Below, piece after piece: positions 4,853 to 17,254 of a stretch of DNA of 21,256 bases. Under the pieces are notes generated by a model. The model searched no databases, was not told the origin of the DNA, and saw only the letters and a program-made list of their open reading frames with translations. How positions within the stretch are numbered: position 1 is the stretch's first letter; every line of letters begins with the position of its first letter. Source of the DNA: a virus; the IMG/VR virus record IMGVR_UViG_3300033150_000539, positions 1 to 21,256 of that record; one strand, 5' to 3'. The position numbers and the translations under genes were made by a program.

Positions 4853-5498
4853 CTTTAAACATTTCCTCCTGAGGAATCTCAACTCCCCAACTCGGTACAA
4901 GAAAGTACCGAGAAGGCAGTTTCAAATTAATATCAAAGTAATTTGCCTCAGAGAACTTCAAAGGTACCTCCTTTACACCGCCATCTGTAAAAACAATCCT
5001 TGTTAGTTTCTCTTTGACTTGTTGAAACTCTTTATTAAAGGTTCTGCTATTCGTTCGACATACGACACCTTCGGGCGAATAAAACCAAACCCCTATCGTT
5101 ATATCTCGCCCTCTCAAACGCTCAAGTACGTAACCTCTATGTACCTGTTTAAGAGTGCGATTATGACTCCCCGCGTTTGCAGGAAGTACCACTTTCTTCT
5201 GCGCCCTTTCCTTATCAGTAATACAATAAAAATCAGGAGCTAATACAGAACCGAGCTCTTCAGGAGTAAACTTCACCAACCGAACAGTTACTGGGGAATA
5301 ACTCAAGCGAACTTCTCCTTCAACGAGCTCACTCCCCTCTAACTGAACGCCTCTCGAGAGAGCCTCTTGAAGAAATCGGTTCTTTGTACTAACAGACATG
5401 TTTCCTTCCTTCCACAACCAGGTCCCTACTAATGTACCATCTTTATCTACAATATACCCAATCTTAGACTCTATCTCTTTGACAAACTGGTTAGCCAC
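4836..5498 (-). CDS. Hypothetical phage protein, 220 aa
   Basis: I do not recognise this protein. It is soluble-looking, mixed alpha/beta, with no membrane segment. Beta-rich stretches include ITIGVWFYSPEGVVCRT and LKLPSRYFLVPSWGVEI near the C-terminus. The start is GTG (5498), seven bases after GGAGG, and lies inside the last codons of the portal fusion gene (28-base overlap), so the two are coupled. The end overlaps the next gene. Between portal and terminase genes one might expect a head-completion or packaging factor, but nothing in the sequence shows this. Confidence 0.7.
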   Translation of the reverse strand: MANQFVKEIESKIGYIVDKDGTLVGTWLWKEGNMSVSTKNRFLQEALSRGVQLEGSELVEGEVRLSYSPVTVRLVKFTPEELGSVLAPDFYCITDKERAQKKVVLPANAGSHNRTLKQVHRGYVLERLRGRDITIGVWFYSPEGVVCRTNSRTFNKEFQQVKEKLTRIVFTDGGVKEVPLKFSEANYFDINLKLPSRYFLVPSWGVEIPQEEMFKDVKES

Positions 5499-8400
5499 TT
5501 CGTAGCCTCCTTCCGTGTTTTAAAGGTAGAGAGTTTTTCATAAATATCAACCAAATTCGTCCTGCCCTCCGTTACAGCGGAAACTATCTTATCCATCAAG
5601 ATATCTAAGTCCTCTTTCTTAACTTTTAAAGTCTTCTCAAGAAGATCTCGCACGTCTTTAAGAGTAACGAGCGTCTTCCTAGGAGGTGCTGCCTTCGCTT
5701 TCTTTGGAACCTCTTTTGGTTTTGGTTCCTTGCTTGGCATCTTCTCCTTCTCAGGTGCTCTTAAGAATTTATCGATCGCGTCCTTAATGCGTTTGCGAAT
5801 ATCTTCGCCCTCCTTTTTAGCTGCGCCCTCAAACAACCCGACCAGTTCCTCGATACCAACATCCTCCTTAACATGTGCCCACAATAGCTGTGGAGTTAAC
5901 CCTTTTACTTGGTCCCTCGTCAAGCCGAGGCGCGTCAAAGCTTCAAAAACTCTTTGCCACATAGGATGCTTGCTAATAAGAGTTTCAGGTCTAACAACAA
6001 GGTCTTGAAGGAGTGACTCCATAAAAAGGAACAACTCAGGGTCACTAAAATACAAGATAGAAGGATTACTTATGTATGTAGCAAAAACCTCCGCAAAAGA
6101 TTCGTCGATACTCTGCAACGAGTACAAGCGCAAGGGAAGGGCCCAATTTCTTAATGCCGTTTGAAGTTTAGGATAAATAGGCTTAAAGACTTCGTCCCTA
6201 AAAATGTCTCTTGATCCCAAGAAAAAGCTGCCTAACGTATTCTTTTCACTCGCGTCTAACATCTCGCTCATGTACCCCATAAATTTCTGGGCCTCTTTTT
6301 CGGTAAGATAGGGCAGAGTCTGTTCATAAAAAGGTATTAAAATCCTCTCTCTATAAACAAAGGCAAACGCATCTCTCATTGAAGAACGCGCAACAAAATG
6401 TCTTTCAAAAACATGATGCCCTAACTCGTGAAGGAACTGAAAAGTATCTCCTGTAGTCGTTATGGAACCGACAAACGACTTTGAAAAATCCTTATAAGAT
6501 CCTTCCAAGGAATAAGAGGCGTCATAACGAGAGACATCGGATAATTTAATACTCGCCAGGCCGTCCCAAAAGGATGATACTCTTAACGAGGGGTGTGCTT
6601 GTAATATATCCATCAGTTTATCACGAAACTCAGAATCAACATGCGATATTCGCGAAAGAATCTTTTCAGGAGTTTGAGTCGCTCGCCAAGGAGCCGTACG
6701 GGCCTTGCGAACCCTATCTATCCACTTTGCATAGGAGGTTGGGGACCAGAAATTCGCAGCGAGAAGCTCTCGAAAAGCGGTCATCCCAACGATATCCTCT
6801 CTATGCGGGCTAAAAATCGACGCCCGAAACATGTGAATAAAAAACTCTCGAGAGTCAAAGTAAGCCTTAGGAGGGAGATCAAAAAGCTTCAAGGACAAAT
6901 CCTTGAAAGGCTCAAAGTTCCCCTCCAACCACGGATCCTTCAATTCAGCAGGCAAAAACTTCTCTAAATAACCATCCCACAACGACTTTCTCGCCCTCTC
7001 CATTACAGACATCAACTCGGCAACAAACGGAGAGCTTGGATATTGAAAATTTTGCCGAAGAAGGATATTTAAAGCCGTCGCATCAACAAAAGCTGCGCGA
7101 ATCTGATCCTCGGAAAACGATGCCGGAATCTCAAGAACATTTCGAATTGCGTCGTATCTAGGTTGCGTAAGAGCCTTGTGTAAACGTACCTCCTTAAATA
7201 ACGAAACGTATGAAGGTTCGCGTAACTGAGGGGTTTTCTTTAACGCATCGACTATCTTTTTATCGATACGTTCAACAATATCCGAAAAAGCGAGTGCTAC
7301 TTCTTTCGCCGGAACGTGAAGATTTTTTAAACTTATTTTCTCCCCAATCCACTTATTCACAGCTGCCTGAGATATATTTGAAATAGGCTCAAGAACACAT
7401 CTACAGTTATGCCCGCATCTAACTCCGTATCCGGGCCAAGTCTGGAGTAACTCTAACATAGAAGGCCTAAAAACTCTCCCCTGAAGTGCTGCACAATCTT
7501 CACAGTTACCGCTCCAGAGACATTTACCGTTTCTCATAACATAAAGAGTGTGCCACTTAGGAAGGGTCACATCGTAAACTTTGCCCTTGTAATAAGTACG
7601 ATGTATTACCGCATCGCTAACAAAGCTTAAGTCACTAGGGACTGAATCAATCCCTAAAGGAACTTTGTGATAAAAAGAAACCTTTGCATATTTAATTAAA
7701 TCTTCAGAAAGAGTTCTCCTGAGTCCCTCTCCAACATATACAAAACATTGATGGTCGGGGGTTACTAATAGGTCAGTCTGATTACCTTCAAAATGAATCA
7801 TCTCCCCGTCGTACTCAAATGACTGATAAGCAACCGGTTTCACCCACTCAACTTGGGACAGGTCTCTAGGATTAATACTCAACATCTTCTCCGATCCATC
7901 TAAGTCTTTAAAAAACTTCCAGCCTTTATCCGTTAACACCCGTGTCTCTTCATCATAACATGTAACATCATCACTAATACCTACCCACCTCAAAAGAACT
8001 CCCTGAGTTTCCTCAAAGAGCCTTGAAACAAGAACCAGCGGAAGATTTGCAAAGAGTGTAACAAATCCTGCAATGGCGATAACGGAGCGCATGAAATTGT
8101 CAAAATCCTTCTTAACCTGCTCCCAACTACCTCTTTTTGCCTCATTATGTATAGTATCTAACCGATTCTTCCAATTCCGAATGGCTTCTTCCCGCAGGCG
8201 TCGATCGTGTTCTTCAATTTCCTTATTAATCACGTCTTTGTCAAAAGTGTCTAACCCCCAAAATTGAGCTACTCGCTCATAACCAAGATCTACCGCGTCC
8301 TCTTCATATGAGTCAAGTATCCCTTCAACCGATAAAAGAAGCGGTACGTAAGAAGGGAGGACAGATGCCGTCTGACGTAACATAACCCGCTCTTCAAACG

Positions 8401-9751
8401 AGGAACGATAATCTAGCAATAACTTCTTTAAATCATCTTGCATCGATTTCAAAAGGTTCATTCGTTTCAACACAAACCTGGCCGTTCTTTCATCAGGAAG
8501 CAGTGACAAATTCTTCAGTTGCTCGACCTTCTCAAGCGAGAGTGCTCGGGTAAGATCAAGTTCGTGCTCAGGGGCCGTTAACGGTACAACCGGCTCTTCT
8601 TGAGAAGGTTGTTGCGATTTACCCAAAGGTGTCAATCCCTGAGGTTGCATCACAGAAATCTGATCACCTCCCTTCACTGGAGGGAGGTACATAAACTGTC
8701 TTGCTTCGTTAGGCGAAATCAACCCCGATTTTGTCCCTTCAATTATTCTCTGGAGAGAATGAGCGGGTGGCACCTTGAACTTAAATGTTACCCCATACGG
8801 CTTAAGAAATCTGTTCAAACGATTCTGAATCGCTCGTGCAACAGTAGGTACAAGTGTTGAGTACATCAAATCTTCATTGGACTCCGCCTGAAGTAAACTA
8901 CTCCCGGGTGGGACGAATCCAAAAGCACTACGTACTAACCAGTCAAGTCTATCTAAGAATGTAGACACCATTTGAATATCAAACTGTTTTACTAACTCAA
9001 TCCACTCGCCTTTTCCCGCACCCCATACAATAGGGATCTTTACTTTATCACCAGCAACCAGAGAAGTTAAGTCCTCCTGAAACTTGTTAACTACGTCTTC
9101 GCTAAGCTCTTCCGGGAATATAAAGGCACCAATTGGTTTTCGGGAGTCAGGGTCGCTCTTAACTAGATTCTTTAAAAGACTCGCAACTTCATAAGTTAAG
9201 GACTCGAGAATAGGAATTCCTTCGCTCGCGTAAGTTTTAGGAACAAGTTGTATATATACTAAATCGTCCGGCTGGAAGCGATAAACCTTACCGAGTCCAA
9301 CTTGTTGAATATACCCGCGCAGGCGCCCATCCCTTTCATAAACAGGATGAAAAGTCGCTGCATCTCTGGCGGTAAAACCGGTTAAACGACCACCGACAGT
9401 CTTCAAAGGAACCAAAACACCCCTGTTCAAAACAAGTATATCTACAGTCAAAGCAATCAAAGTATCTCGAAACGTTTCTCCAGTTACAGTCTCGCGAACG
9501 AATATGAGATCAACAACTTCTTTCTTCTTTAACCCTAACTGTACATCATACTCCCGTGGCAAATCAGCAACTGCGCTGGCAATCTGTTCTACACAACGTC
9601 TAACAATACTAGTCTCTCGATAAATTTGGCGTAGCTCAGACGCAGAAAGAATGGACGTCAAACTCAAGGCCAGGCTAGTCGATATTGAAGCCTCACCTAC
9701 TGCCTTCTCTCGAACTTTCTGTTCCTTTTTCTCTTCGAGCTGTCTTTCCAC
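5471..9751 (-). CDS. Portal-MuF-metallopeptidase fusion interrupted by an intein
   Basis: This 1426 aa precursor joins several domains. Residues about 35-335 are a phage portal (YRETSIVRRCVEQIASAVADLP, then FVPPGSSLLQAESNEDLM), the dodecameric ring through which DNA passes. Residues about 480-790 are a MuF-type minor head domain. Its cysteine motif C-E-D-C-A-A-L-Q-G-R-V-F and later WPGYGVRCGHNCRCVLEP are split by an intein at 598-749. A hydrophobic stretch (556-580) precedes the intein. The C-terminal third has a zinc peptidase signature, FLHELGHHVFERHF (His1108, Glu1109, His1112), with SIDESFAEVFATY (Glu1217 or Glu1221) as likely third ligand. Residues 1330-1360 are a Lys/Pro-rich linker before a helical tail. 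The start is GTG at 9751 with AGGAGG upstream. After splicing the protein would be 1274 aa. Portal-MuF fusions exist; the added peptidase is unusual. Confidence 0.88.
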   Translation of the reverse strand: MERQLEEKKEQKVREKAVGEASISTSLALSLTSILSASELRQIYRETSIVRRCVEQIASAVADLPREYDVQLGLKKKEVVDLIFVRETVTGETFRDTLIALTVDILVLNRGVLVPLKTVGGRLTGFTARDAATFHPVYERDGRLRGYIQQVGLGKVYRFQPDDLVYIQLVPKTYASEGIPILESLTYEVASLLKNLVKSDPDSRKPIGAFIFPEELSEDVVNKFQEDLTSLVAGDKVKIPIVWGAGKGEWIELVKQFDIQMVSTFLDRLDWLVRSAFGFVPPGSSLLQAESNEDLMYSTLVPTVARAIQNRLNRFLKPYGVTFKFKVPPAHSLQRIIEGTKSGLISPNEARQFMYLPPVKGGDQISVMQPQGLTPLGKSQQPSQEEPVVPLTAPEHELDLTRALSLEKVEQLKNLSLLPDERTARFVLKRMNLLKSMQDDLKKLLLDYRSSFEERVMLRQTASVLPSYVPLLLSVEGILDSYEEDAVDLGYERVAQFWGLDTFDKDVINKEIEEHDRRLREEAIRNWKNRLDTIHNEAKRGSWEQVKKDFDNFMRSVIAIAGFVTLFANLPLVLVSRLFEETQGVLLRWVGISDDVTCYDEETRVLTDKGWKFFKDLDGSEKMLSINPRDLSQVEWVKPVAYQSFEYDGEMIHFEGNQTDLLVTPDHQCFVYVGEGLRRTLSEDLIKYAKVSFYHKVPLGIDSVPSDLSFVSDAVIHRTYYKGKVYDVTLPKWHTLYVMRNGKCLWSGNCEDCAALQGRVFRPSMLELLQTWPGYGVRCGHNCRCVLEPISNISQAAVNKWIGEKISLKNLHVPAKEVALAFSDIVERIDKKIVDALKKTPQLREPSYVSLFKEVRLHKALTQPRYDAIRNVLEIPASFSEDQIRAAFVDATALNILLRQNFQYPSSPFVAELMSVMERARKSLWDGYLEKFLPAELKDPWLEGNFEPFKDLSLKLFDLPPKAYFDSREFFIHMFRASIFSPHREDIVGMTAFRELLAANFWSPTSYAKWIDRVRKARTAPWRATQTPEKILSRISHVDSEFRDKLMDILQAHPSLRVSSFWDGLASIKLSDVSRYDASYSLEGSYKDFSKSFVGSITTTGDTFQFLHELGHHVFERHFVARSSMRDAFAFVYRERILIPFYEQTLPYLTEKEAQKFMGYMSEMLDASEKNTLGSFFLGSRDIFRDEVFKPIYPKLQTALRNWALPLRLYSLQSIDESFAEVFATYISNPSILYFSDPELFLFMESLLQDLVVRPETLISKHPMWQRVFEALTRLGLTRDQVKGLTPQLLWAHVKEDVGIEELVGLFEGAAKKEGEDIRKRIKDAIDKFLRAPEKEKMPSKEPKPKEVPKKAKAAPPRKTLVTLKDVRDLLEKTLKVKKEDLDILMDKIVSAVTEGRTNLVDIYEKLSTFKTRKEATKWLTSLSKR
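7505..7960 (-). mobile_element. Mini-intein (152 aa) within the MuF domain
   Basis: Residues 598-749 of the fusion protein form a Hint-fold protein-splicing element. It begins with Cys (CYDEETRVLTDKGWKFF, block A). Block B is LLVTPDHQCFV (T-x-x-H), block F is YYKGKVYDVTLPKWHTLYV, and block G ends CLWSGN, followed by Cys as the +1 residue of the C-extein. At 152 aa there is no room for a homing endonuclease. The penultimate His of block G is Gly, a variation known in some active inteins. Removing it joins DDVT to CEDCAALQG, restoring a normal MuF motif, which strongly supports these borders. It lies in frame with no stop. Splicing activity is inferred. Confidence 0.92.
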
Positions 9752-14054: not shown

Positions 14055-15059
14055 TCATCTCCTCCCTTTCAACCAGAAGTCAAAATAATCGTACGCTTCG
14101 GGCCATTTTATCCGCAAGATTCGACGCTTCTCAGGGTCGGCGTTCGCATAAAACGCAAATGCTTCGGAAAACCCTTCTTCGGGATCCTGAAGACTAGGGA
14201 GAGTCAGGACAGGCGTATCGAGTGGATCCCGCATAAGCTCTCTATAAAACCGAAGTCGTACAAAATTACGGTTAACACACGACCGTTCACGCCCGTAATT
14301 CTTAACCGACTGATCAAAAAACCGAGCACCGTCCGGAAGAACTCTACTTATATAAGGAGCATAAACCTTACTCCCAAAATCCACATAGTGACCCGGAAAA
14401 CGGTCAGAGAAGCGACTCTGAATAAAGTGGCCAGCTTCGTGCAAAAAAGTGTGTCCATACTCGGAAATGTGGTGAGTTACGGGATAAACTTGAATACTTA
14501 TAGCTCCGGAGCCCTGCGGAAACGCAAGATCGGCGAACTTTACTACTTCAGGGTCAAATCCATAGGTCCTTGGAATCTTTATCCCCAAATAGGTTCTAAT
14601 ACGCGCTCTATCAACAGCAGAAAACTCTGCATAAAACTCTTTTGTAAGCATCCTCTCCAAACTATTAGACGATCTTAAAATGTTCGCGTCTGTATAAAAT
14701 CCATAAGGAGCCGCGGTAGCGGTAGTAGCACGATGAAAGGATAAACTAATCTGTTGAAACTCCTTCTCATAAGGTGTTCCTTTAATAACATTAAGAAAAG
14801 AGTCCATTTGAGCTAAAATCTCCTTACGAACCTTAGGAGGTGGCACCGCCGGAAATTCTAAGAAATGATACGATTCAAACCCTGCGTTACTCAACGCTTT
14901 ATTGACAGTTCGGGAATCAACAACCTTTATAGGAGACTTTCTCACGAAGCTAACCATCCAAAGGAAATATTTCCTATATTTCTTCTTTACAATAGGGATC
15001 TTTCTCCCTCCCTTCGTAATCCACTTCTCTATCCATTCAGATGGAACTTCAAACTTCAT
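14055..15059 (-). CDS. HExxH zinc metallopeptidase, paralogue of the portal-fusion C-terminus
   Basis: This 334 aa protein has TFLHEAGHFIQSRF (His207, Glu208, His211), the zinc and catalytic residues of a gluzincin-like peptidase. DPEEGFSEAFAFY (Glu295 or Glu299) is a probable third ligand and matches the layout of the portal fusion (FLHELGH...DESFAEVFATY). No signal peptide or membrane segment is seen. The N-terminus is basic (WITKGGRKIPIVKKKYRKYF). The start has GAGGAG 7 bases upstream and overlaps the end of the preceding small gene by 11 bases. Substrate is unknown: candidates are phage head proteins during maturation or host proteins. Sequence similarity outside the motifs is low to the eye. 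Confidence 0.75.
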   Translation of the reverse strand: MKFEVPSEWIEKWITKGGRKIPIVKKKYRKYFLWMVSFVRKSPIKVVDSRTVNKALSNAGFESYHFLEFPAVPPPKVRKEILAQMDSFLNVIKGTPYEKEFQQISLSFHRATTATAAPYGFYTDANILRSSNSLERMLTKEFYAEFSAVDRARIRTYLGIKIPRTYGFDPEVVKFADLAFPQGSGAISIQVYPVTHHISEYGHTFLHEAGHFIQSRFSDRFPGHYVDFGSKVYAPYISRVLPDGARFFDQSVKNYGRERSCVNRNFVRLRFYRELMRDPLDTPVLTLPSLQDPEEGFSEAFAFYANADPEKRRILRIKWPEAYDYFDFWLKGRR

Positions 15060-15309
15060 ATCGATCTCCTCGATAAGGATCTACACTATATTCAAACCAT
15101 TCATCCTTATCGTTCAAGGCTTTAACTGCTTTTTTGGCGTCTTCCAAAGACACATACCTCCTTAAAACTGCCCAATCCTGAAATGCAAACAAACCCCTTC
15201 GGTACTTCTCCTTGGGCCGCCAGTAGATAGGAATCTTACGCTTCCTGGCTTTGTGTCTATACTTGGGAACTTCACGATCAAACTTCGATTGAAAGTCCGT
15301 CTCTTGCAA
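15049..15309 (-). CDS. Small basic hypothetical protein
   Basis: This 86 aa protein starts with TTG at 15309, 9 bases after GGAGG, inside the end of the MBL-fold gene (32-base overlap). Its first half is very basic (KYRHKARKRKIPIYWRPKEKYRRG) and its end acidic and aromatic (NDKDEWFEYSVDPYRGDRY). I do not recognise a family. The basic stretch could bind nucleic acid, but this is a guess. It ends inside the start of the metallopeptidase. Confidence 0.6.
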   Translation of the reverse strand: MQETDFQSKFDREVPKYRHKARKRKIPIYWRPKEKYRRGLFAFQDWAVLRRYVSLEDAKKAVKALNDKDEWFEYSVDPYRGDRYEV

Positions 15310-15979
15310 TAGTCAGATCCTCCCTCTCTAAAATCTCCTTTACTTTTGTATCTCCCTTTAAAACAGGTTGACGCCCAAGATGAGTAAAAATGACTTTCTT
15401 CCAACCCAACTGGGAAGCGTAACGAAGTTGAGATTTCATAGACGTATGTCCAAAAGGCTCCCCTCCTTTTTCCTTTACTCTTATTATAGGGCGATTTATG
15501 GCGGAGCCGTCACCAATGTAAACCCGAAGATTCCTTAATGTTCCCCATCCAATACGAGGACGAATAATATCTGTAAAGATGCCAACTTCGTCATTTATAA
15601 CAACGCCCCACATAGGACATCGAATCGAATGAAAACACGAAACTGCCTTTAAAGAAACATCACCCCGCTTAAATGGGGGCCGTCGGAACGACGTCGGGAT
15701 AGCCTTCCAGTCACGGATCAACTGGCGGCGTACTAAAGAAGTACATACAAGAATCGTTGGAATTTCCTTGTGTTTTAAACCACTTACATGGTCGCTATGT
15801 GTATGGCTAACATACAAAAAATCTACATCCTTAAGCTTATCAAAAAACGCCTCTTCACCACAATCTATTTGAAAGCGGGTCTTACGGGTCTCAACAATTA
15901 TACCAGTTCTTAATTTATGATGAGGAGAGCTCTCTTCAATCATCCCCTTCGAACCTAAAAACGTAATCTTATACTTCAT
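15278..15979 (-). CDS. Metallo-beta-lactamase-fold hydrolase
   Basis: This 233 aa protein has the metal-binding signature SHTHSDHVSG (His59, His61, Asp63, His64), preceded by FQIDCGEE and LYVSHTH as in the MBL fold. Further probable ligands are His117 (CFHSIR), Asp157 (YIGDGSA) and His200 (IFTHLGRQPV). The fold covers nucleases (RNase Z, SNM1 and DNA exonucleases), phosphodiesterases such as PhnP, and others. The single domain and short length do not show a beta-CASP insert. Its substrate is therefore open; a nucleic-acid or cyclic phosphate role is plausible beside a phage ligase. It directly abuts the SpeD-like gene. Confidence 0.8.
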   Translation of the reverse strand: MKYKITFLGSKGMIEESSPHHKLRTGIIVETRKTRFQIDCGEEAFFDKLKDVDFLYVSHTHSDHVSGLKHKEIPTILVCTSLVRRQLIRDWKAIPTSFRRPPFKRGDVSLKAVSCFHSIRCPMWGVVINDEVGIFTDIIRPRIGWGTLRNLRVYIGDGSAINRPIIRVKEKGGEPFGHTSMKSQLRYASQLGWKKVIFTHLGRQPVLKGDTKVKEILEREDLTIARDGLSIEV

Positions 15980-16336
15980 TTAATTTCGCCCCCTCTCAAG
16001 AAAGGAGGAATCCATCCTCTTCGCCTTAAAAAAATCCTTCACATATTTCTGAATCTTTAAAGAGTCAAAAGCCTTACAACTAAAAACATCAATATAAGCA
16101 GCATTGCATACAAAAGCAAAATGACCCGAAACCAGAGAAGTCTCGATTAACTGCACAAGGGTGTACCCTTCAGTCGGACCCCGTCCAAACCATTCGATAA
16201 TAGGATCACCAAATCTCTTAACGTCAAGTATATCACAGAGTCCGATAACAAATTCCCTTAGCTTCCTCTCACTAGTAATAAGAACTCGATCGCACTCATA
16301 TAAATCTAATATCAGATGGTACCCCCAACCTTTCAT
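15980..16336 (-). CDS. Second SpeD-like protein (AdoMet decarboxylase-related)
   Basis: This 118 aa protein belongs to the S-adenosylmethionine decarboxylase fold. It opens MKGWGYHLILDLYECD, similar to GRHILIDVFEV of its neighbour, and has QLIETSLVSGHFAFVCN followed by AAYIDVFSCKAF. Aligned without gaps from the shared Cys, Ser67, His72 and Cys87 fall on Ser62, His67 and Cys82 of the neighbouring SpeD, so it may also form a pyruvoyl group. The HTWPE segment and the Glu before the cleavage Ser are not kept (Thr here), so substrate may differ. I start it at ATG 16336, after GGGGAG; a longer frame to 16405 would overlap SpeD by 110 bases. The overlap chosen is 41 bases. Confidence 0.72.
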   Translation of the reverse strand: MKGWGYHLILDLYECDRVLITSERKLREFVIGLCDILDVKRFGDPIIEWFGRGPTEGYTLVQLIETSLVSGHFAFVCNAAYIDVFSCKAFDSLKIQKYVKDFFKAKRMDSSFLERGRN

Positions 16337-16682
16337 CACGGATTGCTCCCCTCTCAACAGTTGTGACCTTAGAATATCCTCCCTGAAGAAAGGATAGAAT
16401 CTCACGCATGGCGAGATCCAAGTTAACAGTTTTTCCGCACGTGAACAAATCTACAGCGGCGTAAGAAGCTTCGGGCCAGGTATGAATAGTGAAGTGAGAC
16501 TCTGAAATTATAACAACACAACTTACGCCATGAGGTTCAAAATGATGCGCGTGTGAATGAAGAACTGTTGCGCCTGCCTTACGGGCGGCTCGAACAAGCC
16601 GCCGGAGAATCAGCTTCTCATCATCCAAGATTTTAAAGGGAACTTCAAAAACATCAATCAAAATATGCCTACCAACGCTCAT
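16296..16682 (-). CDS. speD: S-adenosylmethionine decarboxylase, class 1B
   Basis: This 128 aa protein is a prokaryotic class 1B SpeD, which makes decarboxylated SAM for spermidine-type polyamines. It is a self-cleaving pyruvoyl enzyme. VVIISESHFTIHTWPEASYA holds the cleavage site Glu61-Ser62 and His67, and VDLFTCGKTV holds Cys82, all where expected. Length is typical. Phage SpeD homologues exist and some have shifted to decarboxylate arginine or ornithine, so the substrate should not be taken for granted. No aminopropyltransferase is seen in the window. The start has an ATGA overlap with the methyltransferase and a GGGGG ribosome site. Confidence 0.93.
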   Translation of the reverse strand: MSVGRHILIDVFEVPFKILDDEKLILRRLVRAARKAGATVLHSHAHHFEPHGVSCVVIISESHFTIHTWPEASYAAVDLFTCGKTVNLDLAMREILSFLQGGYSKVTTVERGAIRDERLGVPSDIRFI

Positions 16683-17254
16683 GGTCTTACCCCCTTTATC
16701 TTCGCAAGAAACGTTCGACAGCCGCTTTTACCGCCATCACACATCACAATCTCGGCTCCAAAATTCTCAACAAACTCCAAGGGAGACCAAGCTTCTTTAT
16801 GACCTTCGAAATCGTCTTCCCATCTTCCATGAGGGGAAGGAGAAAAATCCTCCGGAAGAGGAGTTGAAACAAAAACAGCTTTGATCGCCTTCTGTACCAA
16901 GACATGCAAAAGGTCATAACCTTCAAGCTTGTCCATGTGTTCAATTACATCAAATAAACATATAAGCTCGTAAGGGGGAAAATCAGCCCAGGAAATAGTT
17001 CGGACGTCCTGAACAATTACTTTGTTGTATACATACTCATGAAGGGGTGAGACATACTTTGGATAAGCTTCGATACAATCAATTCGTACTTTCCATTCAG
17101 GAGGGAAAACGTTCCAGTTCCAAACATCCAAAAATTCACGGAAGAGTACTCCCCATTTCCCAAACCCGGGGCCTATATCTAGGATACTCTTTGGCCTTAA
17201 GTCAAGAACCTCCCTTAAGATTTTCGAAATTGCAAAAGGGTTGCTCGATGGCAT
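16679..17254 (-). CDS. Class I SAM-dependent methyltransferase
   Basis: This 191 aa protein has motif I SILDIGPGFGKWG (Asp26, Gly28, Gly30, Gly32) and ELICLFDVIEHMDKLEGYDL, the post-motif segment seen in small-molecule methyltransferases. VFVSTPLPEDFSPSPHGRWE follows at the active site side. The acceptor is unknown; with glycosyltransferases around it a sugar is likely. AAAGGAG lies 8 bases before the ATG at 17254. It overlaps speD by four bases. Confidence 0.85.
   Translation of the reverse strand: MPSSNPFAISKILREVLDLRPKSILDIGPGFGKWGVLFREFLDVWNWNVFPPEWKVRIDCIEAYPKYVSPLHEYVYNKVIVQDVRTISWADFPPYELICLFDVIEHMDKLEGYDLLHVLVQKAIKAVFVSTPLPEDFSPSPHGRWEDDFEGHKEAWSPLEFVENFGAEIVMCDGGKSGCRTFLAKIKGVRP

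Follow-up and report, generated by a model that had tools for sequence, protein, structure and literature searches.

The window analysed here, a stretch of 21,256 nucleotides, is a linear IMG/VR virus record; among its genes are those for the phage head (terminase, portal and head maturation protease). Its minus strand carries two adjacent genes whose products both belong to the Pfam AdoMet_dc family: ORF A (16296..16682, minus strand; 128 aa), a canonical class 1b S-adenosylmethionine decarboxylase (SpeD), and ORF B (15980..16336, minus strand; 118 aa), a SpeD homologue of the SpeDC type that is a predicted pyruvoyl-dependent L-ornithine decarboxylase. ORF B was first listed at 15980-16405 with a GTG start at 16405. 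No Shine-Dalgarno sequence was found upstream of this GTG, while the ATG at 16336 is preceded by a strong one (TTGAGAGGGGAGCAATCCGTG-ATG), the ribosome-binding sequence ahead of it being GAGAGGGGAG, with the Shine-Dalgarno-like AGGGGAG located at 16346..16352 (minus strand) within speD. Furthermore, the homology of ORF B begins at M24 of the listed frame, which corresponds to the same ATG. Because of these features, the true start is probably ATG 16336 and the listed GTG is wrong, so that B would have 118 residues and the 3' end of speD would overlap the 5' end of speDC by 41 nt (16296..16336, minus strand). A similar overlap, again with a strong ribosome-binding site, is found in a 137-kb relative of the window (L136).

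ORF A scored 128.9 bits against TIGR03330 (SAM_DCase_Bsu; curated cut-off 75.65) and matched Pfam AdoMet_dc with an E value of 3.6e-35. It also contains the ESH...HTWPE...C motif (SESHFTIHTWPE...FTC), and it is therefore a class 1b SpeD by both score and motif. Its AF2 model has a pLDDT of 90, and the alignment to Ser63 of the Thermotoga SpeD places the pyruvoyl serine at Ser62, in the motif S-E-S-H (codon 16497..16499, minus strand). In the tree, ORF A groups with the Thermotoga SpeD and with the SpeDs of two viral speD-speDC-speE sets (98/92).

ORF B also matched AdoMet_dc (PF02675; E 4.4e-19, 69 bits, cut-off 25). Its AlphaFold model, which was built from 53 aligned sequences, has a mean pLDDT of 96, and the best match among solved structures was the Thermotoga SpeD 1TLU (Z 17.5, rmsd 1.8 over 113 residues), with a further match to the Aquifex SpeD 2III (Z 16.3); the model thus gives B the AdoMet decarboxylase class 1b fold. 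The three residues of the pyruvoyl site are retained in the alignment to the Thermotoga SpeD: S63 corresponds to Ser67 of B, the predicted pyruvoyl serine in the motif I-E-T-S (codon 16136..16138, minus strand), H68 to His72 (16121..16123, minus strand) and C83 to Cys87 (16076..16078, minus strand). E62 is replaced by Thr66 and the segment H-T-W-P-E (68-72) reads H-F-A-F-V. By these marks ORF B falls outside the class 1b AdoMet decarboxylases, scoring 34.9 bits against the TIGR03330 cut-off of 75.65 and having Thr66 in place of Glu and Phe75 in place of Pro. These results agree with the first-pass annotation of this DNA, which had described a canonical class 1B SpeD overlapping a second SpeD-like gene (the overlap is now corrected to 41 nt), had matched Ser, His and Cys of the second protein to the pyruvoyl-site residues and had seen that the Glu before the Ser and the HTWPE segment are altered; it had also proposed that a failure of B to align to the AdoMet decarboxylase fold would speak against all this, and B does align to it.

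SpeD homologues devoid of AdoMet decarboxylase activity that act as pyruvoyl-dependent ornithine (SpeDC) or arginine (SpeDA) decarboxylases have been reported in phages, bacteria and archaea in the accounts that we draw on here (PMC9992855; PMC10407285), and the text of PMC10407285 that we follow names four residues of the central region, Gln, Thr, Phe and Tyr, as diagnostic of SpeDC. All four are present in ORF B (Q62, T66, F73 and Y81), the alignment columns having been inferred from the order in which that text gives the residues. Since searching directly for close relatives of B gave only one IMG/VR contig and one marginal bacterial stretch, the SpeDC family was sampled with a motif pattern, by which genes for SpeDC-type proteins were recovered in at least 120 viral stretches. 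All 53 SpeDC sequences in the alignment have the Ser, His and Cys as well as Q/I/E/T, an invariance that this pattern partly forces for Q, T and F. The unforced tests of the column assignment are the Tyr, which lies outside the pattern and is found in 73 of 76 viral SpeDCs, and a cellular Leptospira speD-speD2-speE set in which the second gene, found by similarity, carries the same four residues; both support the assignment. The motif is not absolute, since in one Rhizobium plasmid protein, recovered by similarity, Q, T and Y are accompanied by Ser at the Phe site.

A phylogeny with phage SpeD relatives (97 sequences) placed all the SpeDC-motif proteins on one side of a branch (99/94), with ORF B inside this viral clade and, within it, in a subclade of nine rows (100/98). 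This tree was built on few columns and has several long branches, so that its finer detail is unreliable, and it contains no biochemically tested SpeDC, because the tested phage ornithine decarboxylases (LBP, UCP01-04) were not among the matches in the phage collection. Four of the eight subclade neighbours of B (L014, L044, L052 and L077) belong to viral speD-speDC-speE sets, which apparently represent a full route from ornithine to spermidine on phage contigs. The sets of L044 and L077 are flanked by QueE, and PhoH and QueD are also near that of L044.

Membership of this clade does not by itself settle the substrate, as the phage SpeDC UCP01 is described as accepting arginine as well as ornithine and the ODC clade also holds a bona fide phage AdoMet decarboxylase (PMC9992855). 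An arginine decarboxylase of the SpeDA type, or a mixed ornithine/arginine activity, is suggested by UCP01 and by the pelagiphage SpeD homologues, described as arginine decarboxylases in the same source, and the speD-speD2-speE-speB arrangement of a Microcystis phage (MaAM05, see below), which includes an agmatinase, implies that tandems of the arginine type may exist in phages. However, the pelagiphage proteins have Thr at the Gln site and Ser or Cys at the Phe site and lack the Tyr, whereas B has Gln, Phe and Tyr and sits in the viral SpeDC-motif clade. Moreover, SpeDA proteins, taken here as those without this Gln/Phe/Tyr set and usually accompanied by an agmatine-using gene, would need a gene of the agmatinase family for the arginine route, and none (PF00491) was found in the window or its relatives, so that we consider this reading unlikely. 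Less probable still would be a reading of B as an additional AdoMet decarboxylase that has diverged. The Sinorhizobium phage group, the closest named cultured-phage match to B besides one huge uncultured phage, includes the sole member of the ODC clade that tested as a bona fide AdoMet decarboxylase according to the parts of PMC9992855 used here, and phiM12 of this group has Q, D, F and Y at the diagnostic sites. But the residue before the Ser is acidic both in phiM12 (Asp) and in AdoMet decarboxylases (Glu) and is Thr in B, and a canonical SpeD already adjoins B. From its diagnostic residues and its place in the tree, B is most likely a SpeD-derived pyruvoyl ornithine decarboxylase. The earlier suggestion that it decarboxylates another substrate thus gains support at the sequence level, and Q/T/F/Y and the clade would narrow that substrate to L-ornithine.

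It had also been proposed that B forms mixed dimers with A as its partner, or acts as a regulator; the trypanosome AdoMetDC prozyme would be a model for such a role. Class 1b SpeD functions as a dimer, and the two overlapping genes are conserved together, as would be expected of partners. Among the matches listed, a SpeD-type gene lies directly beside SpeDC in 18 of 120 viral loci, in both orders, and no adjoining SpeD was detected at the other 102, which argues against this reading; the pairing requires nine changes on the SpeDC tree, and the pair has therefore been formed or broken repeatedly. Activity can be lost in such pairs: on one viral contig (L100, 4310-5098) a SpeDC with Arg at the position of the pyruvoyl serine (QLIETRNICAHF) adjoins an odd SpeD (HWYNE), and this protein is a possible dead paralogue and, from its sequence, would be a better prozyme candidate than B. 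Whereas the prozyme of trypanosomes has no catalytic activity (PMC5201418), B keeps S67, H72 and C87, all invariant in the SpeDC rows, and has lost none of the catalytic or processing residues by which a dead paralogue of this type would be recognized. Published SpeDCs, in turn, are active when expressed alone. The proposal of a dimer partner or regulator finds no support in these data, and we attach very little probability to it.

The pair is part of a conserved block. Directly downstream of speDC lies an ORF for an MBL-fold, RNase Z-like protein (15278..15979, minus strand; phrog_392, E 1e-7, and partial matches to NCBIfam RNase Z), and the order methyltransferase, speD, speDC, MBL and following genes is common to contigs of up to 137 kb whose terminase is 87% identical to that of the window. 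The speD-speDC-MBL block shows 67-78% identity in these syntenic relatives, and SpeD and SpeDC themselves are 67-74% identical. Both genes are under purifying selection, with dN/dS of about 0.16 for SpeD and 0.11 for SpeDC, ratios that are rough as they come from a simple count with dS above 1. In L136 the three genes follow the same order and stay joined despite an ATP-grasp-like gene (1507-2646), which in the relatives sits between the methyltransferase and speD and is missing from the window. The MBL-fold gene of L136 (3338-4537) bears a Hint/intein-like insert within its metal-binding SHxHxDH motif (SH|CYDEKTEVF...CFSGN|SHPDH); the Hint match is below the cut-off, and the copy in the window has no such insert. 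Upstream of speD, ORF 16679-17254 matched Methyltransf_23 weakly (Rossmann methyltransferase-like); it was considered as a hidden aminopropyltransferase and rejected, as it has no match to PF01564. The cassette is set in a series of genes for glycosyltransferases and epimerases. Elsewhere in the window, the portal protein ORF (5471-9751, minus strand; 1426 aa) contains an intein-like segment (CYDEETRVLTDKGWKFF...LYVMRNGKCLWSGNCEDC) and a C-terminal zincin-like HELGHH motif, another zincin-like ORF (HEAGH) is located at 14055-15059, and a KH-domain RNA-binding protein of the KhpA/KhpB type is encoded by the phage at 20674-20940 (minus strand; PF13083, 47.6 bits).

With these elements we infer the following route. 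Both genes would be expressed from one message, each with its own Shine-Dalgarno site. ORF A would cleave itself at Glu61-Ser62 and convert S-adenosylmethionine to decarboxylated AdoMet, and ORF B would cleave itself at Thr66-Ser67, generating its own pyruvoyl cofactor, and convert L-ornithine to putrescine. Spermidine synthase (SpeE) takes these two compounds, putrescine and decarboxylated AdoMet, as its substrates and would presumably be provided by the host; infection would then raise or sustain spermidine, to the possible benefit of the phage. A spermidine boost is the simplest account because the products of A and B would be precisely the two SpeE substrates, and we are fairly confident that the pair constitutes auxiliary metabolic genes supplying both spermidine precursors in dependence on the SpeE of the host. 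In profile searches, SpeE (PF01564) was found neither in the 21-kb window nor in related contigs of up to 137 kb, and arginase/agmatinase (PF00491) and deoxyhypusine synthase/SpeY (PF01916) were likewise not found in the window or its relatives. The first-pass statement that no aminopropyltransferase is present thus holds for the 21-kb linear fragment, although little can be concluded from what a fragment lacks. The lack of SpeE in any close relative, together with the glycosyltransferase and epimerase setting, could also indicate that decarboxylated AdoMet and putrescine feed a phage-specific polyamine product other than spermidine, with which a neighbouring transferase would decorate a glycan, a protein or DNA; the upstream methyltransferase-like ORF or the ATP-grasp ligase beside speD in the 137-kb relative may be the candidates for this role. 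We regard this as quite improbable and favour the supply of both spermidine precursors to a host SpeE.

Both enzymes were already known, as was the pair in cells. With the SpeDCs described in PMC10407285 and with those of phage LBP and UCP01-04 (PMC9992855), as far as these accounts go, B shares the fold, the Ser, His and Cys residues, the Q/T/F/Y motif, a length of about 118-122 aa and the occurrence in phages. It differs in detail from the common NICAHF type of viral SpeDC, both in its LVSGHF...FVCNAAY stretch and in its subclade. Compared with the Thermotoga class 1b SpeD (TM0655), whose class includes ORF A, ORF B has the same fold without E62 and T69-W70-P71-E72. Cellular SpeD1-SpeD2(SpeDC)-SpeE clusters and SpeD-SpeDC fusions are reported from Atribacteria, Anaerolinea, Sumerlaeota and Desulfotignum in the portion of PMC10407285 considered here; these clusters likewise put a canonical SpeD beside a SpeDC, for both spermidine precursors, and the Leptospira speD-speD2-speE set matches them. 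Unlike those clusters and fusions, the pair in the window is carried by a phage; it consists of two overlapping genes with no fusion between them, and an MBL-fold gene stands where SpeE would otherwise be. Two adjacent SpeD homologues are also present in GenBank in the cultured jumbo Microcystis phage MaAM05 (PhiMa05; L005, MW495066), whose genome paper names one SpeD only. Its second SpeD differs from that of the window in having an AESH...H motif and an agmatinase neighbour, with SpeE present, and given this neighbour it may be an arginine decarboxylase. The passages of PMC10407285 and PMC9992855 to which we refer describe the pair in cells and single genes in phages, and not a SpeD-SpeDC tandem in a phage. 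These data suggest that phages carry a matched pair for both spermidine synthase substrates and that some viral contigs bear a whole speD-speDC-speE set, which strengthens the view of polyamine supply as a metabolic target of phages and advises against labelling such genes simply as 'S-adenosylmethionine decarboxylase'. The phage SpeD-SpeDC tandem is, in this context, a modest extension of systems already known.
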